A stretch of DNA of 64,000 nt. It comes from Clostridia bacterium. GTDB lineage: Bacteria; Bacillota; Clostridia; Oscillospirales; Acutalibacteraceae. A program made the position numbers and the translations under genes. Of the stretch, positions 15,495 to 53,206 are shown piece after piece (position 1 is the stretch's first letter; every line of letters starts with the position of its first letter). The notes under the pieces are model-generated. The model did no database searches. It had not been told where the DNA came from and saw nothing but the letters and a program-made list of their open reading frames with translations. Location: the NCBI GenBank assembly GCA_029226955.1, contig JAQXZA010000034.1:1-64000 (forward strand), written 5' to 3'.

Positions 15495-15708
15495 AAAACA
15501 AAAAAATATTTTATTATATAAAAATTTTTGTCAAAATATCTTCGTTTTGTTCACAATGTATTGACAAAAACAGAATAAAGTTATAAAATATTTCTAACGC
15601 CATTGTTATATATTGGTATATTATTGTACAGAATTTTAATGACGTGTTAATATGTTCCTGTGTATAAAAATAAGGCGTGTAATTAATTTTTGGAGTGAAG
15701 AAAAAACT

Positions 15709-18426
15709 ATGAAAACCTTTGGTCTGACTGATGAGCAAGTAAGGCTCTCAAAAGAAAAGCACGGCGACAACCGTCTGACCGAGCAAAAGCGGGAGTCATT
15801 CTGGCAAAAGCTGCTTGGCAATTTCGGAGATCCTATGATTAAGATTCTCTGTGTTGCACTTTTGCTGAATGTCATATTTATGTGCTTGCACTATTTTGCC
15901 GGTATAGGCGATACCGAATGGTATGAAACAGTAGGTATTGCGGCGGCGGTAATCATCGCAACATTCGTTTCCACTTATTCCGAATATAATAATGAAAACG
16001 CTTTCCAAAAATTACAGGAGGAAGCCTCGCTCATTAAATGTAAGATTTACCGTAACGGTGAAATTACAGAGGTTTCAATCAATGATATAGTTGTAGGCGA
16101 CTGTATTCTTCTTCAAAGCGGTGACAAGATTCCGGCTGACGGTATTATCGTTGACGGAACTGTTTCCGTTGACCAGTCGGTGCTTAACGGCGAAAGCAAA
16201 GAGGCAAAAAAAGTTGCCGTTCCCGAAAATTATGTCGATAAAGACGAGGCAATGGACTTTCTCAATGAATATAAGGTATTCAGAGGTGCTGTTGTATGTT
16301 CGGGCAACGCTGTAATGGAAGTTACAACAGTCGGCGACAAGTCGGTTTACGGACAGATTGCAAGCGAACTTCAAATTAACGACGACAGAGAGTCACCGTT
16401 ACAGGTAAAACTTGCAAAACTTGCAAAGGGTATCAGTAAATTCGGTTATATTGGCGGTATCGCAATAGCTGTTGCATATCTTGTACAGGCAATGCTGATA
16501 AACGGCGGTGCTGGCCCGGCTGCATATTTCGCACAGACTGACCTTATTCTTAACATATTCAAAGACCTTGTACAAGCCGTAATGTTTGCGGTAGTAATTA
16601 TCGTTATGGCTGTTCCTGAGGGACTTCCGCTTATGGTCGCAATAGTTTCCTCAATCAATATGAAGAAAATGCTCAAAGACAACGTTCTTGTACGTAAGAT
16701 AAACGGTCTTGAAACAGCCGGAAGTCTTAACATTCTTTTCAGTGATAAGACAGGTACAATCACAAAGGGCAAACTTGAAGCAGTAGTATTCCTTGACGGT
16801 GAAGGCACTGAGGCTAAAACTCACGCAGACATCAAGGGCAAGGCAAAGGATATGCTTTCTCTTGCACTCAAACACAACACAAACGCAATAGTTACAGGCA
16901 CAGGCGACAAGATGAAAGTTGTCGGCGGTAACCCGACAGAAAGAGCTGTTCTTGCTTATGTTGCAGATTCTGAGGATAAATTTGATGTAACACCTGTTGC
17001 GTCTGTTCCGTTTAACAGCACAAACAAATACAGTGCAACAAGCGTAAAGGGCAGTCATAATATGACTCTCATAAAAGGTGCTCCTGAAAAAATTCTTCAA
17101 AAATGTAAATATTATTATGACCAGAACGGCAATAAGGCAAAGTTTGACGGAAAGGTTCTCAATCAGAAAATTGACGAGCTTGCAAACAAGGCAATCCGTG
17201 TTCTTGCCGTTGCAACTGCTGACGAAATGCTTGAAGACGATAAACTCCCTGAGGGCGAATGGACTCTTATAGGTGTTATCGGTATTCGTGACGAGGTTCG
17301 TCCTGAATCAATCACAGCTATAAAGGAAGTTCGTGGTGCTGGTGTTCAGGTTGTAATGATTACAGGCGACAGAAAAGAAACCGCTGTTGCAATCGCAAAG
17401 GACGCAGGACTTCTCACAGAAGACACAGACCTTGTGTTCACATCTGATGAGCTTGCAAAGATGAGCGACGACGAAATCAAGAAAGTTATTCCGAATATCC
17501 GTGTTGTTGCAAGAGCATTGCCGACAGACAAGAGCCGTCTTGTAAGACTTGCACAGGAACTCAACCTTGTTGTAGGTATGACGGGCGACGGTGTAAACGA
17601 CTCTCCGGCACTCAAAAAAGCCGACGTTGGTTTTGCAATGGGCGGCGGTACAGAAGTAGCAAAGGAAGCCAGCGACATAGTTATTCTTGATGATAACTTC
17701 AATTCTATCGATAAGGCTATTCTTTACGGACGTACAATCTTTAACAACATAAGAAAATTCATTGTATTCCAGCTTTCAATCAATATTTCAGCGGTACTTA
17801 TTTCGTTTGTAATGCCGCTGCTCGAACTCTCAAATCCGCTTTCAATCACACAGATTCTCTGGGTAAATCTTGTAATGGACACACTTGCAGCACTTGCACT
17901 CGGTGGAGAACCGGCACTCAAACGCTATATGCACGAAAAGCCGAAACGCCGTGACGAAAGCATTATCAGCAAGAAGATGAAATCCCAGCTTGCCGTTGGT
18001 ACAGTATGGACATTTATTCTTAGTTTCTTTATGCTTATTTCACAGCTCTGGACAGACAGTCCTATCTGGAACTTTATCAGAAATGACTTTGATGTCAAAG
18101 GTGGAGGACAGCATTATTATTACTTCCTTATGACAGCATATTTCTGTATGTTTATATTTATTGCAGTATTCAACTCACTGAACGTAAGAACCGACAGACT
18201 GAATGTATTTGAACATATCGGCGAAAATAAAGGCTATTTCAAGATTATGGGAGCGATTGTTGTTATACAGGTTGCACTCACATATATCGGAGGAGAAATA
18301 TTCTCCTGTCACGGTCTTAACCTGACTGAATGGGCAGTTGTTCTTCTTATGGCAGTTTCGATTATTCCTGTCGATATGATAAGAAAGGCAATAGTCAACG
18401 CAATCGAAAAAAAGAACGATAAATAA
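15709..18426 (+). CDS. calcium-translocating P-type ATPase (PMCA/SERCA-like)
   Basis: SDKTGTITKG phosphorylation motif, PEGLPLMVAIV in TM4, MTGDGVNDSPALKKADVGFAMG; ATG at 15709. Confidence 0.93.
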   Translation: MKTFGLTDEQVRLSKEKHGDNRLTEQKRESFWQKLLGNFGDPMIKILCVALLLNVIFMCLHYFAGIGDTEWYETVGIAAAVIIATFVSTYSEYNNENAFQKLQEEASLIKCKIYRNGEITEVSINDIVVGDCILLQSGDKIPADGIIVDGTVSVDQSVLNGESKEAKKVAVPENYVDKDEAMDFLNEYKVFRGAVVCSGNAVMEVTTVGDKSVYGQIASELQINDDRESPLQVKLAKLAKGISKFGYIGGIAIAVAYLVQAMLINGGAGPAAYFAQTDLILNIFKDLVQAVMFAVVIIVMAVPEGLPLMVAIVSSINMKKMLKDNVLVRKINGLETAGSLNILFSDKTGTITKGKLEAVVFLDGEGTEAKTHADIKGKAKDMLSLALKHNTNAIVTGTGDKMKVVGGNPTERAVLAYVADSEDKFDVTPVASVPFNSTNKYSATSVKGSHNMTLIKGAPEKILQKCKYYYDQNGNKAKFDGKVLNQKIDELANKAIRVLAVATADEMLEDDKLPEGEWTLIGVIGIRDEVRPESITAIKEVRGAGVQVVMITGDRKETAVAIAKDAGLLTEDTDLVFTSDELAKMSDDEIKKVIPNIRVVARALPTDKSRLVRLAQELNLVVGMTGDGVNDSPALKKADVGFAMGGGTEVAKEASDIVILDDNFNSIDKAILYGRTIFNNIRKFIVFQLSINISAVLISFVMPLLELSNPLSITQILWVNLVMDTLAALALGGEPALKRYMHEKPKRRDESIISKKMKSQLAVGTVWTFILSFFMLISQLWTDSPIWNFIRNDFDVKGGGQHYYYFLMTAYFCMFIFIAVFNSLNVRTDRLNVFEHIGENKGYFKIMGAIVVIQVALTYIGGEIFSCHGLNLTEWAVVLLMAVSIIPVDMIRKAIVNAIEKKNDK

Positions 18427-29195: not shown

Positions 29196-31028
29196 TCAGA
29201 ATGAAATAATATCACCTGAAATAATATTTCCGTAAAGCTGTAATTGCGGAGTCTTTCCGAAAGGATTTGTTACAGTAAGCAGTGAATTTTTCCCTTCAAC
29301 TGTTGTTTTCAGCGGTTCTATTGATATTATTTTTGCACATTTATTCCAGGTTGCGTGACCTTGCGGGTGTTCAAGAACGTAAATCATATCTTTTTCGATT
29401 TTGTATTTGCCTGTTTTGGTGATGGTCTGATTGTGGTTATTGCATTTCATTTCCAATGAATAATTGCCGTCTGTACCAAACGCAAAACAATATTCTGCTG
29501 AATCTTTTTTGTGGCATACAGGACATTCAAGTTCATCACAGCCCCATACCGCCGGAGTGCTGGTGTCGGTTGCGGCACTTATAATATCCGCTAAATTTTT
29601 GAGGTCTTTGAGTATTGTAGGAACGTCTTTATAGTCTTTTATTTCGGCATATTGATTAAGTGCGTTTTTGTACTCATAATTTTCATAGTAGTTTTGTGCA
29701 TATTTGTAATGACACTCTTTAAGCATTGTCTGAGAATCGGAATAATCACCGAGATATTGAAATTCACTGTATGCCTCGTCGATTTTTTTGTGGTTCATTT
29801 TTTCGACAGCGTCATTGTAAATATTTTCGTATGCCGCTTCAAGCCTTTTTCCGCTGTCAAGATATTCTGAAATCTGAAAATAAATATCAGCGGCACCCAT
29901 ATAATTCTTTTCTTTGTAATATTCTTTGGCAACTTCATATTGCGTTTCATAGTATTTTTGTTTTGAGTCAGAATAATTTTCAATGCTTTTGTACAGCTTT
30001 GCAGCCTGAGATTTTTGGTTACTGTCATAAAGATAGGTTGCCTTGCTGTATATTGCACGGTTAAGAAGTTCCTTACTGTCGAGAAAATCACCAACTTCCG
30101 TAAATCTGCTTATTGCGGTGTCATAGTCTGAATTATCGAGAGCCTGTTTTGCCTGAAAATATGAAAAATAACTTCCGCTGAATGTGTAGCAAAGAAAAAC
30201 CAGTACCGCCGTAACAACAAGAATAGATGTAATAATAATAATTGTTTTTGTTTTTTTGCGATTTTTTTGTTTTTGAATTTGTTTTTCGTATTCAAGATGA
30301 CGATTTTTAAATTCTTCTTTTTGTTTTTCTTTGTCAAGTTTCAGTTTTTTTTCTGATTCCTGTCTTGCTTTTTGCATAGCTTCACTGCGGAGTTTTTCAC
30401 GGGCTATAAGTTTTTCCTGAGAAACGTTTTCTTTCAGCCATTGTTTTGAAATTCCACAGCCTGAACATTTGTCCTCATCATTCCAGTTAAGACAGCCACA
30501 GGCACACATCCAGTGAGAGTCCTGAAAAACCGGCTGAAAAACCAGTTTTGAACCATCAATATTGTTCTCGGCACATAATTCCATAAAATCAGCATTAAGA
30601 TTTTTCTGAACAGAAAAGATGTTTTCCTGTTCAAGACTGACGTTGAATTTTTTTACATCAGTGTTGTACCATACTTCGTTGCCGGTAGTTGTTGCAGATT
30701 TAAGCACAAATTCAATGTTTCTGGTTTCCTGATTTTTTATCGGAATTTTGTATGTCAGACCAAAATCTTTGTTACGTTCTATGTCCAGACCTGAGTATTT
30801 GTAGTCTATTATGTAATCAATCGGATTGTGAATAGTGTCATAGCAAATTATATCAACGGTAATTTCTTTTATAGGTTCGGGCTGAACGTTAAGAAATTTT
30901 GCAGAGGCAAAAAGTTCGCCTGTTTTAGTGTTGAGAATAAGCTGAGTTGAACATAATGTGACCGGTGAACCATAGAACCAAAGGTGTATGTTTTTTTCTT
31001 CGAGTATTTTGTTTATTTCTTCCTGCAT
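29196..31028 (-). CDS. membrane protein with cysteine-rich zinc-ribbon-like motif, coiled coil, one TM and TPR-like repeats
   Basis: WMCACGCLNWNDEDKCSGCG; TKTIIIITSILVVTAVLVFLCY; repeated ...A...Y.....Y.DS... units; C-terminal CPVCHKK. Confidence 0.6.
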   Translation of the reverse strand: MQEEINKILEEKNIHLWFYGSPVTLCSTQLILNTKTGELFASAKFLNVQPEPIKEITVDIICYDTIHNPIDYIIDYKYSGLDIERNKDFGLTYKIPIKNQETRNIEFVLKSATTTGNEVWYNTDVKKFNVSLEQENIFSVQKNLNADFMELCAENNIDGSKLVFQPVFQDSHWMCACGCLNWNDEDKCSGCGISKQWLKENVSQEKLIAREKLRSEAMQKARQESEKKLKLDKEKQKEEFKNRHLEYEKQIQKQKNRKKTKTIIIITSILVVTAVLVFLCYTFSGSYFSYFQAKQALDNSDYDTAISRFTEVGDFLDSKELLNRAIYSKATYLYDSNQKSQAAKLYKSIENYSDSKQKYYETQYEVAKEYYKEKNYMGAADIYFQISEYLDSGKRLEAAYENIYNDAVEKMNHKKIDEAYSEFQYLGDYSDSQTMLKECHYKYAQNYYENYEYKNALNQYAEIKDYKDVPTILKDLKNLADIISAATDTSTPAVWGCDELECPVCHKKDSAEYCFAFGTDGNYSLEMKCNNHNQTITKTGKYKIEKDMIYVLEHPQGHATWNKCAKIISIEPLKTTVEGKNSLLTVTNPFGKTPQLQLYGNIISGDIISF

Positions 31029-32788: not shown

Positions 32789-33556
32789 TTGAAAGAGGAA
32801 AAATACGAAAAAGGCAGTGATGTAATTGCAGGAAGAAATCCTGTAAGTGAGGCATTGCGTTCAGGTCGGGCAATCGAGTCAGTTCTTGTTGCAAAGGGCG
32901 AGCTTTCAGGCTCAATAAAGGTCATTGTTGCAAAGGCTAAGGAAAAACATATCCCGATAAAAGAAGTTGACTCAAAAAAACTCGATTTTCTTTGCGGCGG
33001 TGCAGTTCATCAGGGAGTGGCGGCTCTTGCGGCTGTTAAGGAATATTCAACTGTTGACGATATTTTTGCACTTGCAGAGAGCCGTAACGAAAAGCCGTTT
33101 ATAATTGTTCTTGACGAAATAGAAGACCCACACAATCTTGGTGCAATAATCCGTACAGCTGAATGTGCCGGTGCACACGGAATTATAATCCCGAAACGTC
33201 GTGCCGCCGGACTCAGCTATGCGGTAGGAAAAGCCTCAGCCGGTGCTTATGAATATATGCCCGTTGCAAGAGTGACGAATATTCCTAACGCAATAGACGA
33301 ACTGAAAGAACGTGGCTGTTGGATTTACGGTGCAGATATGAACGGCGAAACATATTGCACAAACGATTTAAGCGGAGCGTGTGCGTTGGTTATAGGTTCT
33401 GAGGGAAACGGTCTTGGCAGACTTGTGCGTGAAAAATGTGATGTAATTCTTTCCGTGCCAATGTGTGGCAAGATAAATTCACTCAATGCGTCAGTTGCCG
33501 CCGGTATATTGATGTATGAGTTTACACGTCAGCGTCTTGGAATCAAAGCAAAGTAA
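32789..33556 (+). CDS. rlmB: 23S rRNA (guanosine-2'-O)-methyltransferase RlmB
   Basis: GRNPVSEAL, LDEIEDPHNLGAIIRTAECAGAHGIIIPKR, GSEGNGLGRLVREKCD, SLNASVAAGI. Confidence 0.95.
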   Translation: MKEEKYEKGSDVIAGRNPVSEALRSGRAIESVLVAKGELSGSIKVIVAKAKEKHIPIKEVDSKKLDFLCGGAVHQGVAALAAVKEYSTVDDIFALAESRNEKPFIIVLDEIEDPHNLGAIIRTAECAGAHGIIIPKRRAAGLSYAVGKASAGAYEYMPVARVTNIPNAIDELKERGCWIYGADMNGETYCTNDLSGACALVIGSEGNGLGRLVREKCDVILSVPMCGKINSLNASVAAGILMYEFTRQRLGIKAK

Positions 33557-33573: not shown

Positions 33574-36500
33574 ATGTCCGAAAATAACTCACAAAAATCT
33601 CCGGTAACAAACACAGAAGTATCGCCTATACGAAATCTTTTCCGCAAAAACGATACAGCCGACGTTAATGCCGCCAGTGTTTCAAAACAAACCGAAAACA
33701 AAGCGGAAAATAAGGCTGAACCGTCAAATCCCGAAAAGGTATCGGATAATAAGAATAAGGCAAAAACGTCAGACGCTGAAAAACAAAAGCCGACATCTGA
33801 ATCTGAAAATAAACCCGAACCAAAAGCCGAGCCAAAAGCCGAACAAAAACAGGAAATAAAACCTGAAACAAAACAAAATCCTGAACCAAAACAGGAAACA
33901 AAATCTGATGAAGAAAAACCAAAAACAGAAGAAAAAACAGAAGAAAAAACGGCGGAAAAAAACGAAAATGAAACTTCCAAAAAAGAAAATTCTGACGACA
34001 AAGACAAAAAAGATGATGTAAAATCTGAAAAAGAACCCGAACCGCCGAAAACATTATCTGAAAAAGAAGAAATAAAATCTGATGAAAATTCTGATGAAGA
34101 AAAATCCGAAAATGACAATAAAAAATCGTTTTTCGGAAAAATTAAATCAAAAATCACTGACATCATTATGTCAATGAACCAGCCTGAGGAAGAATCAGAA
34201 CCACAAATTGAGGATATTTTTTCTTCGAGCGGAAATTTCGTGCGTGAAAAAAACGCTGACCCGTTGGACGCTGACGCAGAATTTAAAGAGAACGTAATTT
34301 ATACTGCACCAAAAGAGGAAGAAAAGCAACCCGACAAAAGTGTTGTTTCAGTCAGCGACGTTATAAAGGCGGCAAGCAAAAACAACGAACCTAAGAAATC
34401 CGAAAATTACAAAAAGGACACGAATGACAAGGATATTACCGAAATTCTTAATGCGGAAAGGGCAGAGAAAAACACAGCAAAACCCGAAAAAAATAAATCG
34501 GAAACTCACGAAAAAATAACATCTCAACCCGAAAACAAACCGCAAAAAACAGAAAATCCACAGCCTGTAAAATCTTCCGAACAGAAAACCAATGCCACAA
34601 AACCACAACAAAATAATATCAATGACAAAAACACCGTTCAGAAAACTGAACCTGTAAAACCGCACAATAACGACACAGCCGCTAAAAAAGAAACAGTGGA
34701 AAAGACCGTTCCTCAGCCTGTTAAATCCGATAAACAGGTAATTTCCGAAAATAAGCCACAGAATATCAAAAAGCCTGTTGAGGTTCATTCGGCTGAAACT
34801 CCTGTTGAAAACATTAAGCCAGCAACTCCGAAAGCTGTTGCCGAACATTCAGCGGAAAACAAAAAAATATCCGAAAATAAAAACATTGAACAGCCGAAAC
34901 CGACTCAGCCGCAGTCAAAAAATGTCGGAAAACATTCGGATAATACGGCAAAAATCATAAATGAAAAGCCGAAAAATACTGATACTCAAAAACCGCCAAA
35001 AACAGATGTTCCAAAGACAACTGAACAGGTATCACAGAAAAATAATACACCAAAAATTGACGGTGACGACGGCATAAAAATTCTTCCGTGGACTCCGAAA
35101 AAAGATGTTCCCGAAAAAAAGCCGAATGTTAAAGCACCCGACACAAAGGGCAAGAATTTGTCAGAAGGCAGTACGGATATTTTAGTCTATCATTATAACA
35201 GAACCGAACCTTTTGTCGTTATGGCGGGAAAATTCACCAAAACGGTCAAAAGCGAGTATGAGGAAGTGCGGAAATTCAACAGTATTCCGCTTGATGACAG
35301 TGCGTCCGAAAAGCCGAAAAATTTATCTTCACCTGTTGTTGAAAAATCAGTTCCGAAAATCAATCAGCCTGTTAAATCCGTCCTGAACAATAATACAACA
35401 AGCGACAGAACTACCGACATTAAGCTGATTGATAACGGCAAAAAGCAGTCGGACGAAAAGCACAGTGCAGTATCTTCAAAAAATACACAAAAGCCTGTTA
35501 AAAGTGAAAATATTCCGTCACAAAATCGCAGTGTAAAATCCGTACCGCAAATTTCAGAGGTTAAAAAGCCTGTTGATGACGATAAAAAACAACCAGAACA
35601 AAATAAAGTCAAAAAATCCACAGCTAAAAAGCCACAAAAACAAAAAAAGCCAAAGAAAAATTATAATTTCAGAAATATTTTCAGCAGTGAGGAAGAATAC
35701 GACCCCGAGGACATTGAAAAAATTTATGTACAAAAACCACAGCTTGACGATTATACAAACGAAAAGGACAGCGAAACAATAAAAACCGAGATTGCTGAAA
35801 ACTTCCGTCACGTATTTACAAGAACGGGTATTCTTTTTGCCACAACGATTATATCCGTTGTAATTGCGATTATTGCACAGTGCATACCGTCACTTTTTAC
35901 TCAGACAATCCGCAATGGCTGGCTTGTCTATGCAATAATAAATTTCCTGTTGTTCAGTGTGTCGGTTGTTGTCAGCCGTGTGCCTATTGTGAACGGTATA
36001 ATGCCGCTGAGGCATTTTAAGGGTAATTCTGATACGGCAATAGCTGTTGCGTCCTTTGCGGCGGCAATACAGTCAATAGTCGCACTGTTTTCACCAAATG
36101 TTTTTGTCAACGGAACACTTTACATATATTCATCTCTTGTAATTCTTGCGTTGTTCCTCAACAGTCTTGGCAAAATGCTGATAATTCTCAGAACCTACAA
36201 TAACTTCCGTTTTCTGTCAAAACCTCGTCCGAAATATGCCGGAAAAATTTATACTGATATAAGAAATGCCGAGAAAATTTCCTCAGGACTTCCGTCAAAA
36301 AAGCCGATAATTGCTTATACAAAACAGTCAAAATTTATGAGTAATTTCTTACAGCTTTCTTATGCACCAGACCCGAGTGAAGATGCCGCCGCAAAAATTG
36401 CACCTTATGCAACAATATTGTCGATTGTATGCGGAATTTTGTACGGTGTAATGACACGTGATTTTGTAGGTGCTGTTTCGTCGTTTGCACTTTCAGCCTG

Positions 36501-37470
36501 TATAACAATACCTGTATGTTCACTTCTTGCGGTGAATATTCCGCTGAAAAGACTTTGCCACAACTCAATAAAGGGCGGTGCAATGGTAACAAGCTATGAA
36601 ACCGTAAAGCAGTTCTGTGACACAAACGTTGTAATGATTGATTCATCACAGCTTTATCCGCCGGGAACTGTAACCCTCAGCGGCATAAAAGCATTCAAGG
36701 AAAGCAAAATAAATGACGCAATAACAGCCGGTGCGGCAATTATGTTTGCTGTTGACGGCACAATGAGTTATATTTTTGAAAATATCATTCAGGACAGAAA
36801 GGACATTCTCCCGAAAGTTGAAAGCGTAATTTATGAGGACGGTCTTGGACTTGTCGGCTGGATTAACGGTCAGCGTGTTCTTATCGGTAACCGCCGTCTG
36901 CTTGAAACACACAACATCACTCCGCCCGAAAAATCAATCGAGGAAAAATATCTCAATATGGGCAATCAGGTAATGTACATTTCAATGAGCGGTGAACTTG
37001 TAGCAATGTTTATTCTGTCATACACTGCCGACAGGGAGATAATGCACGAGCTGAGAAATCTTGAAGACAACGGTGTCAGCTTTGCCGTAAGAACGGTTGA
37101 CCCGAACATAACTCAGGACTCTATCGCCGAAAAATTCTGTCTGTTCTTCCGCTGTATAAAGATACTCCCGACAAATCTCGGCAATATATGCCACAATGCA
37201 ACATCATCTGTTGACGAGAAATCAAGAGCATATCTTGTAACACGTGGAAAAATTTCATCATTTGCAAGAGCCGTTTCGGGCTGTATAAGAATAAAATCCA
37301 ACATCACGCTGTCAATTATAATTCAGTATATAGCGATAATTCTTGGCTTGCTTATTGTAACCTTAATTTCGTTTATTTCAGGATTTGAAAAGCTTGGCTG
37401 TCTTGAAATGCTTTTGTATATAGGTTTTTGGGCGGCGGCTACAATAATTATTCCGCTTATCAAAAAATAA
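33574..37470 (+). CDS. large protein: ~700-aa disordered Lys/Glu/Pro/Asn-rich N-terminus fused to a catalytically degenerate P1B-type ATPase-like membrane core
   Basis: C-terminal ~560 aa matches the P-type layout: IKGGAMVTSYETVKQFCDTNVVMIDSSQLYPPGTVTLSGIKAF (DKTGTLT site altered), EDGLGLVGWINGQRVLIGNRRLLETHNI (N-domain), GNQVMYISMSGELVAMFILSYTADREIMHELRNLEDNGVSFAVRT (P-domain). Confidence 0.75.
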   Translation: MSENNSQKSPVTNTEVSPIRNLFRKNDTADVNAASVSKQTENKAENKAEPSNPEKVSDNKNKAKTSDAEKQKPTSESENKPEPKAEPKAEQKQEIKPETKQNPEPKQETKSDEEKPKTEEKTEEKTAEKNENETSKKENSDDKDKKDDVKSEKEPEPPKTLSEKEEIKSDENSDEEKSENDNKKSFFGKIKSKITDIIMSMNQPEEESEPQIEDIFSSSGNFVREKNADPLDADAEFKENVIYTAPKEEEKQPDKSVVSVSDVIKAASKNNEPKKSENYKKDTNDKDITEILNAERAEKNTAKPEKNKSETHEKITSQPENKPQKTENPQPVKSSEQKTNATKPQQNNINDKNTVQKTEPVKPHNNDTAAKKETVEKTVPQPVKSDKQVISENKPQNIKKPVEVHSAETPVENIKPATPKAVAEHSAENKKISENKNIEQPKPTQPQSKNVGKHSDNTAKIINEKPKNTDTQKPPKTDVPKTTEQVSQKNNTPKIDGDDGIKILPWTPKKDVPEKKPNVKAPDTKGKNLSEGSTDILVYHYNRTEPFVVMAGKFTKTVKSEYEEVRKFNSIPLDDSASEKPKNLSSPVVEKSVPKINQPVKSVLNNNTTSDRTTDIKLIDNGKKQSDEKHSAVSSKNTQKPVKSENIPSQNRSVKSVPQISEVKKPVDDDKKQPEQNKVKKSTAKKPQKQKKPKKNYNFRNIFSSEEEYDPEDIEKIYVQKPQLDDYTNEKDSETIKTEIAENFRHVFTRTGILFATTIISVVIAIIAQCIPSLFTQTIRNGWLVYAIINFLLFSVSVVVSRVPIVNGIMPLRHFKGNSDTAIAVASFAAAIQSIVALFSPNVFVNGTLYIYSSLVILALFLNSLGKMLIILRTYNNFRFLSKPRPKYAGKIYTDIRNAEKISSGLPSKKPIIAYTKQSKFMSNFLQLSYAPDPSEDAAAKIAPYATILSIVCGILYGVMTRDFVGAVSSFALSACITIPVCSLLAVNIPLKRLCHNSIKGGAMVTSYETVKQFCDTNVVMIDSSQLYPPGTVTLSGIKAFKESKINDAITAGAAIMFAVDGTMSYIFENIIQDRKDILPKVESVIYEDGLGLVGWINGQRVLIGNRRLLETHNITPPEKSIEEKYLNMGNQVMYISMSGELVAMFILSYTADREIMHELRNLEDNGVSFAVRTVDPNITQDSIAEKFCLFFRCIKILPTNLGNICHNATSSVDEKSRAYLVTRGKISSFARAVSGCIRIKSNITLSIIIQYIAIILGLLIVTLISFISGFEKLGCLEMLLYIGFWAAATIIIPLIKK

Positions 37471-37489
37471 AGTGAAAGGAAAATCAACA

Positions 37490-38134
37490 ATGAAAATTGC
37501 ACCATCACTTCTTGCCTGTGACTTCTCAAAAATGGGGGAGGAAATCCAGAAAATCGACAAAGCCGGAGCAGATATGGTTCACCTTGATGTAATGGACGGA
37601 CACTTTGTGCCTAACCTTACAATAGGACCCGCAATAATAAAGGCTGTACGTCCATATACAAAACTCCCCTTTGACGTACACCTTATGATAGACTATCCGC
37701 TTGACTATATAGACGCATTTGCCGATGCCGGTGCGGATATTATCACATTCCACATTGAATCAATGTCCGAACCGAATATGACAATTCAGAAAATCCACGA
37801 CAGAGGACTTAAAGCCGGTCTTGTAATCAAACCCGGAACACCAGCCGAAATGGTTTATCCTTATCTTGACAAACTCTATATGGTTCTTGTAATGACCGTT
37901 GAACCTGGTTTTGGCGGACAGGAATTTATGGAAGATATGATGCCGAAAGTCACCGCCATAAAATCCGAATGTAAAAAACGTGGACTTGATGTTCTCGTTG
38001 AAGTTGACGGCGGAATTTCCGAAAAAACAATCTCAGCCGCCGCAAAAGCCGGTGTTGACATAAGCGTTTCAGGCACAGGCGTATTCAAAGCCCCCGACAC
38101 CGCCGCCGCCATAAAAACACTTAAAAACAGTTGA
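37490..38134 (+). CDS. rpe: ribulose-phosphate 3-epimerase
   Basis: IAPSLLACDFSKMG, HLDVMDGHFVPNLTIGP, VEPGFGGQEFM, VDGGIS; ATG at 37490. Confidence 0.97.
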   Translation: MKIAPSLLACDFSKMGEEIQKIDKAGADMVHLDVMDGHFVPNLTIGPAIIKAVRPYTKLPFDVHLMIDYPLDYIDAFADAGADIITFHIESMSEPNMTIQKIHDRGLKAGLVIKPGTPAEMVYPYLDKLYMVLVMTVEPGFGGQEFMEDMMPKVTAIKSECKKRGLDVLVEVDGGISEKTISAAAKAGVDISVSGTGVFKAPDTAAAIKTLKNS

Positions 38135-38766: not shown

Positions 38767-39357
38767 TTAGCTTTGAACGCAATTTGACAGCGGAGGCACT
38801 CCGCCTATGCTTTCTGTGGCGGTTTTGTCGCAAAGGAGAGTTGCGTGTTCTCTGAGTGCCGCAAGACAAATGTCACCACGCTTTGTTTGTGTTGAAAATT
38901 CCGATATTGTATTGAGATATTTGGATTTAAGGGCAGAGGCAGACTGTATTGCAAGATAGTAAATGCCGTTATCAACAAAAGCCGAACTGAAAAATTTGTT
39001 GTTCTTTATGTTATATAAGGCTTTCATACAGGCAAGAAAATTCTCAACTGTATCAAAAGTGAAAATATATGAATCGGTATAGCTTTTTATACGGTAAATT
39101 TTACGCTTTTTGTTCTTGTCGCTTATGGTTATAAGCAAAAGACAGCCGTGTTCATACTGCATAGCCTCAATGAGAATTTTTTTATTTTTAAAGCTGATAC
39201 CTGTTTTTACTGACGCATAATAAAGCAGTTCTCTAAGAACCTCACGTGAATGAAATTCGTCAAGGCTGAGCGTTTCAAAACTGACAGAGAATTTCTCCAT
39301 ATCTTTATCGGCAAGCGAAATAATAATTCTTGAAGTGTCAATCTGTTCTATATTCAT
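38767..39357 (-). CDS. mecA: adaptor protein MecA-like
   Basis: MNIEQIDTSRIIISLADKDMEKF ... LRELLYYASVKTGISFKNKKILIEAMQYEHGCLLLIT; start set to 39357. Confidence 0.75.
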   Translation of the reverse strand: MNIEQIDTSRIIISLADKDMEKFSVSFETLSLDEFHSREVLRELLYYASVKTGISFKNKKILIEAMQYEHGCLLLITISDKNKKRKIYRIKSYTDSYIFTFDTVENFLACMKALYNIKNNKFFSSAFVDNGIYYLAIQSASALKSKYLNTISEFSTQTKRGDICLAALREHATLLCDKTATESIGGVPPLSNCVQS

Positions 39358-39547
39358 ATAAGGTTCCCTCCCGAACAGCAAAAAATACATTAACCTACTA
39401 TTATAATATTAGAATTATGCTTGTTTTGCAATCGGAGATTTTTGGTTATGAAATTTTACGTTGTTTTTGAATTAAATCCGTTGAAACGTGACACACAGTA
39501 TGTTATTATTATTGCAACAGATATTTCAACGAAAAGAGGTAAACAAA

Positions 39548-45136: not shown

Positions 45137-48100
45137 TTATTTCTTGTATGATTTTCTTTTGCCCGTGAAACACAGTGCTGCCAGACCGGCTGCCGCAAGT
45201 ACAGTGATGAACAGAGGGAACAGAGGTGTTGCGTCACCTGTATTTGTTGTACCTGATGACTGACTGTTTGATGTATTTTCTGAAACATCTGAGTTTGTCG
45301 GTTCAGTTGAACTTGTCGGAGTATCTGAACTTGTTGGTTCAGATTGTGACGGTTCGATTGAAGGTTCAGTTGAAGGTTCGGTTGAAGGTTCTGTTGAAGG
45401 TTCAGTCGAAGGTTCTGATGGTTCAACAGATGGTTCGTCAGGAGTTACAGCGTCAGTTACTTCAACTGTTAATGTTTTTGTTTTGATAAGTGAGGACGGA
45501 ATTTCGTTCCAGTTATCAATAGTTACTGAGTTTTTATCATCAATACAAACTATGCTGTCTGATTTCGGGGCATACATTACAGTAATTGTAGCCTTACCCT
45601 TTGAAACAGGTCTTACAAAATTATTTATCAATTTTACAACCGATTCGTCAGAGGATACATATCTTACATCAATTCCGTTTTCTGTGTCACTGTTGAATAT
45701 TCCGTTTGTGTCTAATTCAAGCAGTGAATCAGTGCCGAGCTTAATATCAGTGTCGAGCTTTTCACCGCTTGCAAAGTCTGAAAATTCAATATCCTTGATG
45801 TTTGCGGCTGCGTCAACCAATTCTTTTGACGCACTTCTTATAACTGCGACGTCAACATCATTAGCACTGCTCTTTACGGTTATTGTGGCTTTTTCCTGAA
45901 CAGAACCGTCATCAAGTGTTGAAACTTCAAAGTCGCTGTCTTTTACAGGAACAGTCCATACAACAGTTTTTGTTTCGCCGATTTCAAGGTCAAACGGTTC
46001 GCTGTCTGTTGTTTCTTTGCCGTTAAGTTCGGTGTGAAGTACAAGTCCGCTTGATTTTTCTTCGCCGTTGTTGTAAACGTTTGCGGTAAGTTTAACGGTA
46101 TTTCTGTCAACAAATTCTGTATCAACGCTTTCAATAGCCCAGTTATCAGCATAGGCGAGAGTTTCCTCAGTGCTGCATATTTCCTTACCGTCAACGACAA
46201 CAACTGCTTTAAGTTTCTTGCCGTCTATATTTTCAGGAATATCACAGTTAATATATACTGTTTCTGTTACACCGCCGTTAATTGAAGAAATTGTATTGCT
46301 GCCGAGTTTTTCATTATCGCAGTAGAGCTGAATTTCAACATCTCTGCCGAATGAAGCGTTTTTGTTTGTGACATTTACAGCAACATTTGTGTTGGTCTGT
46401 CCTGAAATAATGTTGTCCAGGTTGTCAATTTCAACACTGTATTTTGGCTGACTTAGGTCAAAATCACGAACACAGAGTGTCGGATTATCTTCATCAAGAC
46501 CACGGTATTTGTTGCCGTTTTGTTCGTCGGTAAGTATTGTGCTTGGTGCGTTGAGATACACAAATCTCAGAATGTTGTCATCTGTAACTGTTGCGTCTAT
46601 GCCTGAATGGTTTGCGTCCTGTTCGTCAGTAATCTGAATATCGTCTGTCCAGTGTTCAGATTTTACATATTTTATCATCTGGTCGCCTGCATTAACAATG
46701 CCTGTCAGTCCGTTTATATCCTTGACGGTTTTGTAGTCGATTGTGTTGCCGTCGTTGTCTTTTTCAGGATAGATAAGCGGCTGATTGTTTTCATCATAAA
46801 GCGGTACTGCATTAACATCTATATTGTTTGTAATAAGATGAATCTGATGTTCTATGTACTGATGTTCAGGCTTTGTAGCCTCATCTGAATTATGGTCAAT
46901 ACCGTCTTTGTATGAAACGCCGTATTCTGTCCAGGTGATATAAATATTGACATCATCTGTAAGAGTTGCAGAAAATGAAGTTACAGGATTGTTTTCATCA
47001 GCCTGATGAATAATTTTCGGCTGATTGTAGTTTGCAAAAGATTTGTCAAATATCAGAACTTCTGTGCCGTCCTGAGCTTTCATTGTCAGACCGTTGTCAA
47101 TAAGCTGTGCTACATCATATTCGGCTATATTACCGTTGTCAAGATAGAACAGATTTATTCCGCCCAGTCCGTCAGATACAAGAGATACATTACTCTGCTG
47201 AGTATTGTCATTTGTAACACGGATTGCAGGATATTCTTTGTTAAGAGTGCGGTCATAGACTTTAAGGAATACATCTTGGTCTTCTGTTGTTTCGGCATTT
47301 CCGTCAACATCAATACAGAAAGCAAATATAGCCTTGTCATCATAGCCTATTGTATCAAATGACCTTATTGCATAATCTTTGCCGATACCTGTAAGTTTAA
47401 CATCTTCTGAATTTGGTTTTTCAGTCCAGCCGCCGTTGCCGTCGGATATATTGCTTTCGTCAACATATACATACTTAGAGAAATCAACAAAGTGCTGTCC
47501 GTACCAGTTCTTTTCAAAATCTGCCTTTTGAGCCTTTGTAAGAACACTGAGTTTATCGGCTGTGTCGCCTGAGTATGTGTCAACCCATTCTTCCTTGTCG
47601 AAATCATAGAAACGGTATGCTATTGTCTGATAAGGATTGATAAGGTCGCCGACTGTTACTTCTTCATCGCTGACTGCCTTTTTGTATTCGTCCTTGCAGT
47701 AGCTTACCATAAGATATTTCTTATCGTTCACAACTGAATATGCAACCTTTGGTGAATAGTCAGCAACTATATCTGCCGCCGTACTCTTTGTTACCTGTGT
47801 AATCTTGCTGAATGTGTTTGTAGTTGCGTCAAAGAAACAAGCTTTAATGCAGCTGCTGTTGGCTGTTTCTACCGGGTCATCTTCTGCGAGTGAAATATCA
47901 GACCAGAGAATAAGCAGTCTGTCGTCGTCTATTTTGTACAGATAAGGTGTAACATCAAATGTTGATGTTTCATCAATCATCTTTGGTTCTGACCATACGC
48001 CGTCTTTGCATATTGAGTATGCGACAGATGTGTTGTTATAGCTTTCTTCATCTACACCTGCCAGACTGTCGTCAATCCATAACATAAACTGTCTGTTGCC

Positions 48101-51100
48101 TGAAATGTTTTCGATATAAGGTTCAGCGTCAGGATATACAGGTGTTTCAAGGACTGTTTCACCGTTTGCATTAACCTTTCCGTTCCATTTAATAGTATTG
48201 ATGTCGTTTGCATTGTCTGAAACTTTGTTTGTATAATCATCAGCGGTTACAACATCATATCTTGCGTCATTGTTATTTTGTCTGAGGAGATTATTTGCTC
48301 TTGAATATGTAGCACCGTCTGCTCTCAGGCTCATAACCTGACTGTTATCAAACATATTGTATTTGTACTTACCAAGGTTGTATTCCTTTTTTATAAGTCC
48401 GCCGATAAGTTCAAGCATAACTTTACCTGAAAGTGTAACATCACCCTTGCTTGTACCTCGTGTATCGAAGGTCATATCAAAAGCCGCTGTTCCGTTAATT
48501 TCCAGTGACGCAATACCGAGCGGTACCTCTGCACCAACACCGATTGTGATAGAAGGGCGAACTTTTAAACCGCCATAGAAAGTAAGTTTGCGGTTCGGGT
48601 CAGTCATACCTGTATAAGCTGTCAGGTCTATTTTCGGGTCTTCTTTTGAATCAGGGTCATTTACAAAATATAATTTGTGGTTTCGGTATTTTTCAACACC
48701 GATTATACCTGTAATGTCACCGTTGATTTTGCCCTTGACAAATACAGAAACACCGATAGGTGTCGGGTATGAATATTTAGCACCTGCATCGCTGCTTAAT
48801 GTTGCGGTAAGTACCATATCTTCAAAATACCAGTGTTCACCTTTGTCAGAGGATCTCATTGTGATTGAAAAGGCAAATTTAAGGTCAATCTTATAGTTCG
48901 CTGTAAGTTTGCCCGACTTTTTGTTTTGGTTACTTTCTTTGTCAACAAGTTCTTTTGCTTCATTTTCCTTGTCTTTATCTGTAACGTCTGCCGGAGGTGC
49001 AGCGGGTTCATCACCGGAGTTTTCTGCTTCCGGAGGTGCAGCGGGTTCGTCACCGGAGTCTTCTGCTGCCGGAGGTGCAGCAGGTTCGTCTTTTACAAGA
49101 GCCTTTGCTTCGTCCTCAGGTTTTTCCTTCTTTTTCTTTGAATCTTTATATTTACCTTTCCAGTTCGTGTTCCAGCCACAGCTTATAGTTTTGACAAGTT
49201 CGCCTGTTTCTTTATCTTCTGTGGTGGGAGAAAGTGTTTCGTCATCGACTCTTGTAAATATTCCAAGATCAAAAAATGTATCGGCTTTACCTAAATACTC
49301 TATTACGCCATTATAAGGAGCTTCAAAAGAGTTAATAACCGCAATAGCTCCAAGATATTGACGGAATATAATACCTGATTTATGCTCAACATATCCTACG
49401 TCATTCTGGTCAAAAACACGAATAGTAAGATAATCGCCTGCTGATACGCCTTCTTTTGCCGGATTAAAGCTGTAATATCCCTTTTCCGGTTTGCCTTTTT
49501 CGTCGTCGTTGAGTGTAGGAGAAATTGCGTATGTATCCTGACTGTCCTTTACAAGTTCCGTATTAAAGGTCTTTTTGAGCTTTCCGTCTTTGGAATAAAG
49601 ATATGCCTCTACTTTTCCTACGCTATATAATGATGACAGAGAATTAACTTTAAATGTAAAATAATATCTCTGGTCATTATTATTGACATTTATATCAGGA
49701 TTTTCGATTGGATTTGATATATATTGATAGTCGTTCAAAACTTTCTTATCAATTCTTATTTTGGACGCTTTTAAATCCGTAACATTAAATGTATTGTACT
49801 CTTCATACACAATCTCAGCAGGACAACCTACCTGAATATTTGCTGTCCAGTTAGCACTGCCGTTATTGAAAAGGACATTATAAAATTCATTATTTCCAAA
49901 ATCTGTGCTTGTAAATTCAAAACGTCCGTTTTCATCGGTAACCGTTGTCATTCCGTTTACAACAACTTCAACGCTTGATGCAGGGGTTTTTTTGCTTTTT
50001 TCGCCTTTTGTGTTTTCGAGTACGGTTTTGCCGTCGTAGTAAACAGTTCCTGATATAACTCCTTCATTACGTGATGACGGTTTTGCCTCAACATAATAGT
50101 ACAGTTGTCTGTCAATAGGAATATTCGAGATAAAATTAAGGAAATTTCCATACATAGGCTTTGTATCTATATTTTTATAGTATTCGCCGAGTGCGTCCAC
50201 TTCAGCCTGGCTGTAATAACCGTCTTGGTTTGTGTCGCCTGTACGGTCATTCCATATAATTTTATATTTTTTGCCGTCAATTTCATTCTTGAATACAGAA
50301 ATGAAGTCATATCTTGTATTCAAAGAATATCCGTCAATTTTTATTACATCACCCTCGCAAAGAGTCTTTACCTTACCGTTGATTACTTTTTTGTATGTTC
50401 TCTTATATTTTGCTGTAAGTATGTTGCCTGCATTGTTAGGGTCTGCCGTTGTTACAATAACCTTGTTCTGATACTGAGGAGATTCAGCGGCGGGGTTTAC
50501 AGTCATACTTATGACAGAATTTCTTGACGTTACATTGATATTTATTATACCGACGCTGTTGTTTCCGCCTGTACCGCCTGACTTATTTTTTACATAAAGT
50601 TTAGACGGAGTGACTGAGAGGTTGCCCTGTATATTGTGTTCAAAGCCCCATACTCTTGGTTTGTCCTTGATTGTGTCTTCATAATTTTTATACAGTGCTT
50701 TTTGTATATCTGTATTTACAACGTTTATATTTCCGCTTGAAATGTAAAGTTTTGAGTAAAGCTCTTTTTCAAGCCGTTCAGATGTTGCAGAAACATTGTT
50801 GTAGTTAATGGCACTCCATTCGTAACCAAGAATAACCTTTGTATCTGTCGGAACAACATTGTACTTGACTGTATCAAGTTTACCCATTGTTATAATATCG
50901 CCGTTTTTGAATGTATTGTTCTGAATTTTGATATTGTCCTCGCTGTCAACATTGAACTTGACTATTGCCGTTTTCTGACGGTAAACGGGGCGTATCTCAA
51001 AGAAAGGTGCCTCGTGACCCTGAATTTGTGAAGAGTTCTTAAAAATATTTAAAGGTATGCGTCCGTATGATATGTTTCCGTTTGTCGGGTTAACATAATA

Positions 51101-53206
51101 GCCTGTAAGAGTACCTTTGTAAAGGTCGTTTACGGAAATATCCGTTCCTTCTACATAGAAGTAGCCATTCTGTGTGTTTTTAGGTTTGATTTTTACACCC
51201 CAGAGATAAACATTTTCCTGTTCTTCTTTGGTAAGCTGACTGTTTTTAAGGTCGCTTTTAACAGAAATTATATCATCTCTATAGAAAATATTTTCTGAAA
51301 TAGTGTCTTTTTCGCCTTTTTTGGTATATGTAACACCACTGCCGTCTGCAAAATTAAGTCCGCCTATGTATTTAGCGTCCTTTTGTTTTGTTTTTTCGTA
51401 CTTTGTCGGACTTATGTAGGTTTTAGTGTACAGCCACGAGTCTTCATCACTTTTTTCCATAAAGTCCGACTCTTTACCATCATACGAGAGTCCGCTTACA
51501 AGTCGTACTTTTATCGGCAGTGCATACAGAGCCATATCACTGAAATGAGCCTTAGTATCTTTTGTATCATTTTCATAATAGGTTCCATAATGTATATACG
51601 GTACTTTGCGGTCACTGTCTTTCATATAATACTCCTGACTCCAATAACCCCACGAACCGCCTTTTTTATTAACAAGATAGTTATGGTCACCGAGTGCAAG
51701 ATATGTATAAAAGTCCGTATTGTAACCCGAATTCCAAAGAATACCTAAGAATCGTGTTTCAAAATATGTACCTCTGCACCAGTTTTCAACATCGTATCCC
51801 AACATACCGCTCATAGAGAGTATATCGGTATTATTATACGATTTCATTCTACAACTTGTCATTGTTGTGCCTGTACTGTTTTCAAGCTCAGCAAGTTTTT
51901 TGTATTTCCAGTAATTTATTTCATTTATTGTCGCTGTGTCAGCAGTCTTTGCATTAGCATTTGTCAATGCAAACAAAACCGGAACTTCTGAATTTATGAT
52001 AATGTCTGCCGTGTCGCTTGATGTAGAGTTGCTGTCCTCAACACGAACCTTGAAAGATACAGTACCGTTTTCGGGACGTTGGAGAATAGGAATTTCTACT
52101 TTTCTGTATTCCTGGTCGGCACTGAAAGAAAGTGATTCCGAAAAAGGATTATAGTATATTCCGCTTTCGGCTGTGCCTGAAATTGTGCTGATAACAGCCT
52201 CGCCCTGATGTGATATACCTTTTGTGCGGTGTATTGTAACAGTTACTTTATCCTCATTAGGATTTAAAATTATGCTGTCCTCGTCAATCACAAATTCCGA
52301 TTTGTCGTATTCGTCATTGTCCTTGATTACTACAAGTCCTGACGGGTTGTCCACAAGGTCAGCACCCTTTGCGTCGGTAAGCAAAAGCATTGCTATTTCG
52401 TCATCTTCGGCTTTGTCATCATCATTAACGATGAATTTCAGCTTTTTGTAGGTTTCACCCGGTGCAAAGGTAAGTTCACATTCAGCACCCGGCATTTCAG
52501 AATAGGCTTGGTTGTAGTATTCGGAAAGTTCCTCGTTTGTGAGTTCCGATTCCTCACCGCTGAGAGTTTTGTCTGTCCACGGTGTTTTGTCGGCTTTCTC
52601 GTCTGTGAGAAGTTCCTTTGCCGAACCCAAGTCAGTACCTACTTCATCTGTCGGAGAAAGTACGCTTTCCTCTGTTGATGTTTCGTCGTCAGTGTCGGGA
52701 TTTGCCTTGTTCGGTGTATCAGCTTCTGTTTCTGCTGATGTTTCGGCTGTTGAATTTTCGTCGTTGTTGATTACAGTTTCATTGCCGTCAAAAACAACAG
52801 GAACGTCCTGTGCCTCTTTAAGCTGTTCCTTGTAAAATCCCGAACCGTCTTCGGTTTTGAGTTCATCATCACCGAACCAACCCGGAATGGCTACTTTGTA
52901 GTCGTCGCCATAGTCGGCAGAGATGTCAACGGCTTTGAATTTTACAGTTGCCTCTTTGTCGGTATTTCCGGCACGGATAATGGCAAATTCAATACTGTCT
53001 GTGCCTTCCTGAACTTCAAGTCGTGGTTCAAGGAACGCAAAGACACCGTTTGGATAGGTTTCACTGTCCGCAAGGGATTTCAACGCACTTGCAATTCTTT
53101 CATCTGTGATTGAATCGCTGGCAAGAACTGTTGTCGGAACCGCTCCCGCAAGTATGCACGATGCAAGTACAACTGCTGTGGCTCGTTTGAAGATTTTAGA
53201 CTTCAT
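45137..53206 (-). CDS. 2689-aa secreted, wall-anchored-type surface protein with Calx-beta-like, CARDB-like and carboxypeptidase-regulatory-like domains
   Basis: Signal peptide MKSKIFKRATAVVLASCILAGAVPTTVLA; Calx-beta-like RLEVQEGTDSIEFAIIRAG...; C-terminal EPST repeats then TTNTGDATPLFPLFITVLAAAGLAALCFTGKRKSYKK. Confidence 0.85.
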   Translation of the reverse strand: MKSKIFKRATAVVLASCILAGAVPTTVLASDSITDERIASALKSLADSETYPNGVFAFLEPRLEVQEGTDSIEFAIIRAGNTDKEATVKFKAVDISADYGDDYKVAIPGWFGDDELKTEDGSGFYKEQLKEAQDVPVVFDGNETVINNDENSTAETSAETEADTPNKANPDTDDETSTEESVLSPTDEVGTDLGSAKELLTDEKADKTPWTDKTLSGEESELTNEELSEYYNQAYSEMPGAECELTFAPGETYKKLKFIVNDDDKAEDDEIAMLLLTDAKGADLVDNPSGLVVIKDNDEYDKSEFVIDEDSIILNPNEDKVTVTIHRTKGISHQGEAVISTISGTAESGIYYNPFSESLSFSADQEYRKVEIPILQRPENGTVSFKVRVEDSNSTSSDTADIIINSEVPVLFALTNANAKTADTATINEINYWKYKKLAELENSTGTTMTSCRMKSYNNTDILSMSGMLGYDVENWCRGTYFETRFLGILWNSGYNTDFYTYLALGDHNYLVNKKGGSWGYWSQEYYMKDSDRKVPYIHYGTYYENDTKDTKAHFSDMALYALPIKVRLVSGLSYDGKESDFMEKSDEDSWLYTKTYISPTKYEKTKQKDAKYIGGLNFADGSGVTYTKKGEKDTISENIFYRDDIISVKSDLKNSQLTKEEQENVYLWGVKIKPKNTQNGYFYVEGTDISVNDLYKGTLTGYYVNPTNGNISYGRIPLNIFKNSSQIQGHEAPFFEIRPVYRQKTAIVKFNVDSEDNIKIQNNTFKNGDIITMGKLDTVKYNVVPTDTKVILGYEWSAINYNNVSATSERLEKELYSKLYISSGNINVVNTDIQKALYKNYEDTIKDKPRVWGFEHNIQGNLSVTPSKLYVKNKSGGTGGNNSVGIININVTSRNSVISMTVNPAAESPQYQNKVIVTTADPNNAGNILTAKYKRTYKKVINGKVKTLCEGDVIKIDGYSLNTRYDFISVFKNEIDGKKYKIIWNDRTGDTNQDGYYSQAEVDALGEYYKNIDTKPMYGNFLNFISNIPIDRQLYYYVEAKPSSRNEGVISGTVYYDGKTVLENTKGEKSKKTPASSVEVVVNGMTTVTDENGRFEFTSTDFGNNEFYNVLFNNGSANWTANIQVGCPAEIVYEEYNTFNVTDLKASKIRIDKKVLNDYQYISNPIENPDINVNNNDQRYYFTFKVNSLSSLYSVGKVEAYLYSKDGKLKKTFNTELVKDSQDTYAISPTLNDDEKGKPEKGYYSFNPAKEGVSAGDYLTIRVFDQNDVGYVEHKSGIIFRQYLGAIAVINSFEAPYNGVIEYLGKADTFFDLGIFTRVDDETLSPTTEDKETGELVKTISCGWNTNWKGKYKDSKKKKEKPEDEAKALVKDEPAAPPAAEDSGDEPAAPPEAENSGDEPAAPPADVTDKDKENEAKELVDKESNQNKKSGKLTANYKIDLKFAFSITMRSSDKGEHWYFEDMVLTATLSSDAGAKYSYPTPIGVSVFVKGKINGDITGIIGVEKYRNHKLYFVNDPDSKEDPKIDLTAYTGMTDPNRKLTFYGGLKVRPSITIGVGAEVPLGIASLEINGTAAFDMTFDTRGTSKGDVTLSGKVMLELIGGLIKKEYNLGKYKYNMFDNSQVMSLRADGATYSRANNLLRQNNNDARYDVVTADDYTNKVSDNANDINTIKWNGKVNANGETVLETPVYPDAEPYIENISGNRQFMLWIDDSLAGVDEESYNNTSVAYSICKDGVWSEPKMIDETSTFDVTPYLYKIDDDRLLILWSDISLAEDDPVETANSSCIKACFFDATTNTFSKITQVTKSTAADIVADYSPKVAYSVVNDKKYLMVSYCKDEYKKAVSDEEVTVGDLINPYQTIAYRFYDFDKEEWVDTYSGDTADKLSVLTKAQKADFEKNWYGQHFVDFSKYVYVDESNISDGNGGWTEKPNSEDVKLTGIGKDYAIRSFDTIGYDDKAIFAFCIDVDGNAETTEDQDVFLKVYDRTLNKEYPAIRVTNDNTQQSNVSLVSDGLGGINLFYLDNGNIAEYDVAQLIDNGLTMKAQDGTEVLIFDKSFANYNQPKIIHQADENNPVTSFSATLTDDVNIYITWTEYGVSYKDGIDHNSDEATKPEHQYIEHQIHLITNNIDVNAVPLYDENNQPLIYPEKDNDGNTIDYKTVKDINGLTGIVNAGDQMIKYVKSEHWTDDIQITDEQDANHSGIDATVTDDNILRFVYLNAPSTILTDEQNGNKYRGLDEDNPTLCVRDFDLSQPKYSVEIDNLDNIISGQTNTNVAVNVTNKNASFGRDVEIQLYCDNEKLGSNTISSINGGVTETVYINCDIPENIDGKKLKAVVVVDGKEICSTEETLAYADNWAIESVDTEFVDRNTVKLTANVYNNGEEKSSGLVLHTELNGKETTDSEPFDLEIGETKTVVWTVPVKDSDFEVSTLDDGSVQEKATITVKSSANDVDVAVIRSASKELVDAAANIKDIEFSDFASGEKLDTDIKLGTDSLLELDTNGIFNSDTENGIDVRYVSSDESVVKLINNFVRPVSKGKATITVMYAPKSDSIVCIDDKNSVTIDNWNEIPSSLIKTKTLTVEVTDAVTPDEPSVEPSEPSTEPSTEPSTEPSTEPSIEPSQSEPTSSDTPTSSTEPTNSDVSENTSNSQSSGTTNTGDATPLFPLFITVLAAAGLAALCFTGKRKSYKK
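45350..45417 (-). repeat. 12-bp tandem repeat encoding EPST units
   Basis: ggttcggttgaa-type units repeated about six times. Confidence 0.85.
48985..49090 (-). repeat. 36-bp tandem repeat (about 3 copies) encoding DEPAAPPAAEDSG-like units
   Basis: tctgctgccggaggtgcagcgggttcgtcaccggag repeats. Confidence 0.85.

Follow-up and report, generated by a model that had tools for sequence, protein, structure and literature searches.

The window, namely the whole 64,000-nucleotide stretch of DNA analysed here, encodes a protein of 1298 amino acids that is referred to below as the pseudo-ATPase. Its ORF begins at an ATG (position 33574) preceded by a GGGAGG ribosome-binding site, and is flanked by rlmB and rpe. 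The protein combines a long N-terminal tail of low complexity with a C-terminal core predicted to adopt the fold of P1B (heavy-metal) ATPases:

32789-33556, + strand: rlmB, encoding a 23S rRNA 2'-O-methyltransferase of the SpoU family, the directly upstream partner (Pfam SpoU_methylase; synteny)
33574-37470, + strand: pseudo-P1B ATPase gene, 1298 amino acids (ORF; ribosome-binding site GGGAGG; homologs in 294/299 genomes of the order)
33574-35709, + strand: cytosolic N-terminal tail of low complexity, about 712 amino acids (K 18%, E 12%, rich in N, S, P and T), recognized by composition and pLDDT
35710-37467, + strand: core of 586 amino acids with predicted P1B fold, comprising membrane helices, P and N domains and the remnant of an A domain (AF2, Foldseek, hhalign)
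37472-38134, + strand: rpe, encoding a ribulose-phosphate 3-epimerase (Pfam), a neighbor among close relatives only

The coordinates of the ORF and the peptides quoted from it in an earlier reading of the sequence alone (hereafter the original prediction) were rechecked on the sequence and held. So did the location of the gene between rlmB and rpe, with the refinement that rlmB is kept throughout the order and rpe in close relatives only. A MecA-like adaptor protein is also encoded near the pseudo-ATPase gene (38767-39390, - strand), and its relatives adjoin rpe in several close relatives.

No Pfam family was matched by the core in a Pfam search. The NCBIfam models for CopA (E 5e-12) and for the heavy-metal ATPase subfamily (E 1.7e-8) match it, both far below their curated cut-offs. 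As a single sequence, the core is related to the structure of Legionella CopA (LpCopA, 3rfu) with an E-value of 1.6e-9, which reaches 1.2e-30 with a profile of 26 homologs, and all 53 PDB matches (53/53) correspond to P-type ATPases. Comparison of the family with the canonical P1B pumps of the same genomes by hhalign gave a probability of 99.8% and an E-value of 1.9e-27 over 445 columns, extending through M5. The AlphaFold2 model of the core, built from 80 sequences, has a pLDDT of 90.5 and a pTM of 0.85, and its top Foldseek match in the PDB is CopA 4bbj (E 2.1e-18, TM 0.51). Foldseek TM-scores remain modest (about 0.5), as expected, because the domain arrangements differ and the A domain is reduced. 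The core has the features that define the fold of the P-type ATPase superfamily, namely membrane helices, a P domain and an N domain; this fold is predicted by a model and no structure has been solved. The likeness of the C-terminal half to P1B ATPases, which the original prediction had drawn by eye, is thus statistical as well (sequence, profile, hhalign and fold), and structure prediction with AlphaFold2 and Foldseek, proposed at that time as a check, did return a P-type fold.

Compared with the CopA-group P1B ATPases (4bbj, 3rfu, 7r0g), the pseudo-ATPase harbors the same membrane helix plan and the same P and N domain fold, and remains in register with them through M4, the P domain and M5. 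By contrast, it lacks every signature motif, the GDGxND segment being deleted, its A domain is about 60 residues shorter, and it carries a long disordered tail but no metal-binding domain. The regions concerned are, in order along the gene:

36199-36396, + strand: shortened actuator-domain region, with the TGE segment deleted (hhalign gap over LTGES)
36502-36543, + strand: M4 region, with ITIPVCSL replacing the CPC metal-binding motif (alignments)
36622-36666, + strand: pseudo-active site, VVMIDSSQLYPPG replacing VVFDKTGTLTEG (alignments)
36721-36906, + strand: N domain, with SEHP lost, GxG partly lost and GNRRLL kept (alignments)
37090-37137, + strand: RTVDPNITQDSIAEKF replacing LTGDNxxTAxAIA, with the Asp kept in at least 90% of the order-wide alignment (D464 nearly invariant; hhalign)
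37156-37281, + strand: deletion of the GDGxND hinge segment (hhalign gap opposite GDGINDAP)

In the window protein, alignments show that DKTGT reads DSSQL (MIDSSQL) and that TGDN reads TVDPN. The residues at the CPC/CPx site of M4, IPVCS in this protein, are varied across the order. In the N domain, alignments indicate that replacement of SEHP, partial loss of GxG and conservation of GN are family-wide features. In M5/M6, the metal ligands YN and MxxSS were not seen in the sequence or in the alignments. Among 190 homologous loci, some species being represented twice, neither DKTGT (0/190) nor GDGxND (0/190) was found, whereas the canonical pump loci of the same genomes retain them in 31/32 and 32/32 cases, respectively. 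The pattern TGE[SP] matches in 2/190 of these loci, by regular expression only and without verification. A survey of homologs, suggested together with the original prediction, detected DKTGT in none of them, close or distant. The position of the catalytic Asp is occupied by D in the window protein and most of its close relatives, and elsewhere by E, N, S, R, T, K or other residues. Since DKTGT and GDGxND are missing throughout and the catalytic position is varied, the loss of the motifs is old and complete. The genome that harbors the pseudo-ATPase also encodes two ordinary pumps with DKTGT, L263 and L264, and, within the window, a canonical cation ATPase of the P2 type that has both DKTGT and GDGVND (15652-18426, + strand), a useful internal control.

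The original prediction had reported that KTGT was replaced by SSQL and that TGDN and GDGxND could not be found. These observations held, and CPC and TGE proved to be lost as well. Its statement that the Asp is kept holds for the window protein, but homologs vary at that position. Its proposal of a non-transporting protein is strongly supported, the elements for phosphorylation, dephosphorylation and metal binding and the GDGxND element all being missing. Because every catalytic element is absent, the window protein and its family are in all probability dead as classical pumps; the loss of all pumping is inferred from sequence and models. Automatic annotation may misname these genes as metal transporters.

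Loss of motifs could also reflect a decayed copy or pseudogene. This was ruled out by open frames, low dN/dS, the consistency of the motif loss and the absence of any relative with intact motifs. The frame is open in 80/80 loci of a contig scan and in nearly all other loci, the exceptions being L031, interrupted by a single in-frame TGA, and the split L042. Between close species, dN/dS amounts to 0.013-0.11 for the core and 0.035-0.2 for the tail (Nei-Gojobori, NG86, a method that saturates at high dS). That the low-complexity region is a coding artefact was likewise excluded, as the frame runs into the conserved core and has its own RBS, and the tail is under purifying selection.

The family is not a genus-specific oddity either, as established by an order-wide profile search that detected it in 294/299 sampled genomes from 145 genera (E <= 1e-43), many of them metagenome assemblies. 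In a sample of the class, all nine genomes of the order carry it (9/9), and none of the 187 genomes from other orders has a full-length match (0/187); the partial matches obtained there (about 288-576, E >= 1e-37) correspond to ordinary pumps. In a sample of the phylum (250 genomes), matches were restricted to its three members of the order. The records closest to the window come from rumen and gut assemblies of Ruminococcus/Oscillospiraceae, from which it is inferred that the order carrying the family is most likely the Oscillospirales of GTDB. In a maximum-likelihood tree, the family forms one clade separate from the Cu and Zn pumps (SH-aLRT 100), the exact placement of which is unsure due to long branches.

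The genetic context is equally stable on one side. rlmB is the immediate upstream gene, in the same orientation, in 78/80 loci covering 23 families of the order, and contig ends account for the remaining two. What lies downstream differs between loci: rpe within the genus, and elsewhere an EF-G paralog, Era, LCP, a nitroreductase, an isocitrate dehydrogenase-like protein and others; the downstream gene was dropped as a functional clue, being too variable. In 22 loci an EF-G paralog is close by, and in one locus Era. The EF-G paralog often lies directly downstream of the pseudo-ATPase gene, for instance at L150:1639-3711 (- strand) and L180:7725-9803 (+ strand). From conservation, synteny and selection taken together, it is concluded that the protein has a function. 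The whole catalytic apparatus has been lost, and yet the family persists in almost all members of a major order of gut and rumen bacteria, which implies an important unknown function; its fixed operon position and strong purifying selection point in the same direction.

Pseudoenzymes are known to serve as scaffolds or regulators, and the pseudo-ATPase shares with them a dead enzyme fold under purifying selection. A degenerate P4-ATPase domain, in which most signature residues are unidentifiable, is present in Plasmodium guanylate cyclase beta (PMC6592433). Whereas that domain is eukaryotic, P4-type and fused to a cyclase, the pseudo-ATPase is a stand-alone bacterial protein, derived from P1B ATPases and nearly universal in its order. 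A bacterial family of pseudo-P-type ATPases was not found in the open-access literature searched, which also yielded nothing direct on the link with rlmB or on the tail peptide described below; most subscription journals were not covered, so this is no proof of novelty. The family would offer a model for a transporter fold reused without transport.

The N-terminus is of low complexity, as originally predicted, with the qualification that it is no single fixed domain: its length varies across the family from less than 100 to more than 1,000 residues, and conserved peptides lie within it. In the window protein, three segments are of interest:

33616-33651, + strand: conserved N-terminal peptide EVSPIRNLFRKN, present in 8/81 tails of close relatives and 0 in shuffles
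34429-34470, + strand: KDITEILNAERAEK, a weak and uncertain candidate for the docking peptide of the order, picked by eye and failing the strict pattern
35164-35271, + strand: conserved tail block (...FVVMAGKFTKTVKSEYEEVR), in 76/81 tails versus 0.1 expected in shuffles, with a short helix of moderate confidence

A docking-like peptide, [FY]S[LIV][DE][DE]ILxE (with [ST] at position 2 in a looser form), is located near the N-terminus in many families of the order. Its strict pattern matches 41/75 tails, against a mean of 0.64 and a maximum of 3 in 50 shuffles, and an order-wide search with the corresponding DNA pattern returned about 100 sites in 249 genomes versus 12 for the reversed control. 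The window's tail lacks the strict form, of which its relatives have variants only. These relatives share a second block, FxVMAG[KR]F[ST]xT[LV][RK]xEYE, also written AG[KR]F[ST]..EYE, which a short regular expression matched in 76/81 tails; the window's tail carries this AG[KR]F block, whereas its version of the first peptide is weak. Folding of a tail block onto the core was considered and rejected: a second AF2 model, which covered the 3' part of the tail, left it disordered, with pLDDT mostly under 50 and only the short helix.

The first peptide is almost confined to the pseudo-ATPase gene among 2875 ORFs, a sample biased to the loci fetched. It was rejected as a general motif of many proteins, given the few convincing carriers, namely a sortase (L283, L284), an ABC-2 exporter permease (L260) and a single-pass protein that bears it at its C-terminus (L262). 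The sortases (L283:1756-3825 and L284:1360-3960, both - strand) possess very long acidic cytosolic N-terminal tails opening with YTVDEILAEF and FTVDDIIAEF, respectively. The permease, a polysaccharide exporter (L260:3427-4749, - strand), has a low-complexity N-terminal tail of about 180 amino acids opening with FSIDDILAEI. Matches in EF-Ts, RsmB, MurC, a CofE-like protein and cellulases were judged to be due to chance, lying inside globular proteins or at the C-terminus.

The best explanation, which is as likely to be wrong as right, is that an ancient pump turned into an order-wide membrane scaffold. The change from a P1B-type metal pump to a membrane protein without catalytic activity would date to the base of a single clostridial order, most likely Oscillospirales, and vertical inheritance would have followed, with the gene staying at its fixed operon position downstream of rlmB. 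The protein would have retained its membrane helices as well as the folds of the P and N domains; no cycle of phosphorylation, dephosphorylation or transport is expected, and the metal-binding motif is gone. The core would be seated in the membrane, and the conserved short peptides of the long cytosolic tail would dock to a cytosolic partner, perhaps common to a few cell-envelope proteins. The fold, motif loss, deletions, purifying selection, order-wide presence, synteny and recurring tail peptides on which this proposal builds are shown from sequence and models, whereas the scaffold role and the docking of the peptides are inferred, and no partner is known. A scaffold is the most economical function because the tail carries conserved peptides. 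The original prediction had left the choice between scaffold and sensor; this is still a matter of inference, which the docking-like peptides tilt toward the scaffold, neither a partner nor a ligand having been identified. A link to envelope assembly is an inferred possibility. Against both the scaffold and the envelope readings, no partner has been identified, the strict peptide is missing from the tail of the window protein, and few other proteins carry it; furthermore, the neighbors rlmB, EF-G paralog and Era suggest translation no less than the envelope. The short peptide provides a testable lead to an order-specific cytosolic partner.

A bolder form of the scaffold hypothesis, conceivable at this stage, holds that the dead P1B pump is the membrane anchor of an order-specific scaffold whose peptide recruits a cytosolic hub organising cell-envelope assembly; it draws on the N-terminal docking peptide common to the pseudo-ATPase, the sortase and the polysaccharide exporter permease. 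It is also possible that the dead pump became a sensor, the core binding a metal, nucleotide or lipid without turnover and thereby altering the action of the tail. The invariant G380 and G393 of the N domain, the nearly invariant Asp 464 of the former TGD and the confidently predicted fold would fit such a role. However, CPC, the metal motif, has been lost along with SEHP, which contacts ATP, and no new conserved cluster of Cys or His was seen in the order-wide alignment.

Other alternatives carry less weight. A membrane-linked factor for translation or ribosome biogenesis working with RlmB is suggested by the immediate proximity of rlmB (78/80 loci) and by the nearby EF-G paralogs and Era; it is considered unlikely, as the downstream gene is variable and tight synteny can mean shared expression only. 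Even less probable is a role in regulating the canonical P1B pumps that the cell also has, such as that of an inactive partner subunit: such pumps are present in the same genomes and the folds match, but there is no gene linkage to them, and P1B pumps are not generally known to need inactive partners of this kind. Least likely of all is that the protein forms a passive channel or a transporter with some other driving force. Its membrane helices are retained and well modelled, but the metal ligands of M4 (CPC) and M5/M6 (YN, MxxSS) were not seen, and the membrane part drifts strongly in sequence between families.

Two other genes of the window, both on the - strand, deserve mention. One encodes a 610-amino acid protein without Pfam match that displays a zinc-ribbon-like motif, a membrane helix and repeats (29196-31028), and the other is a giant ORF of 2689 amino acids with Calx-beta domains (45137-53206), probably a surface protein.
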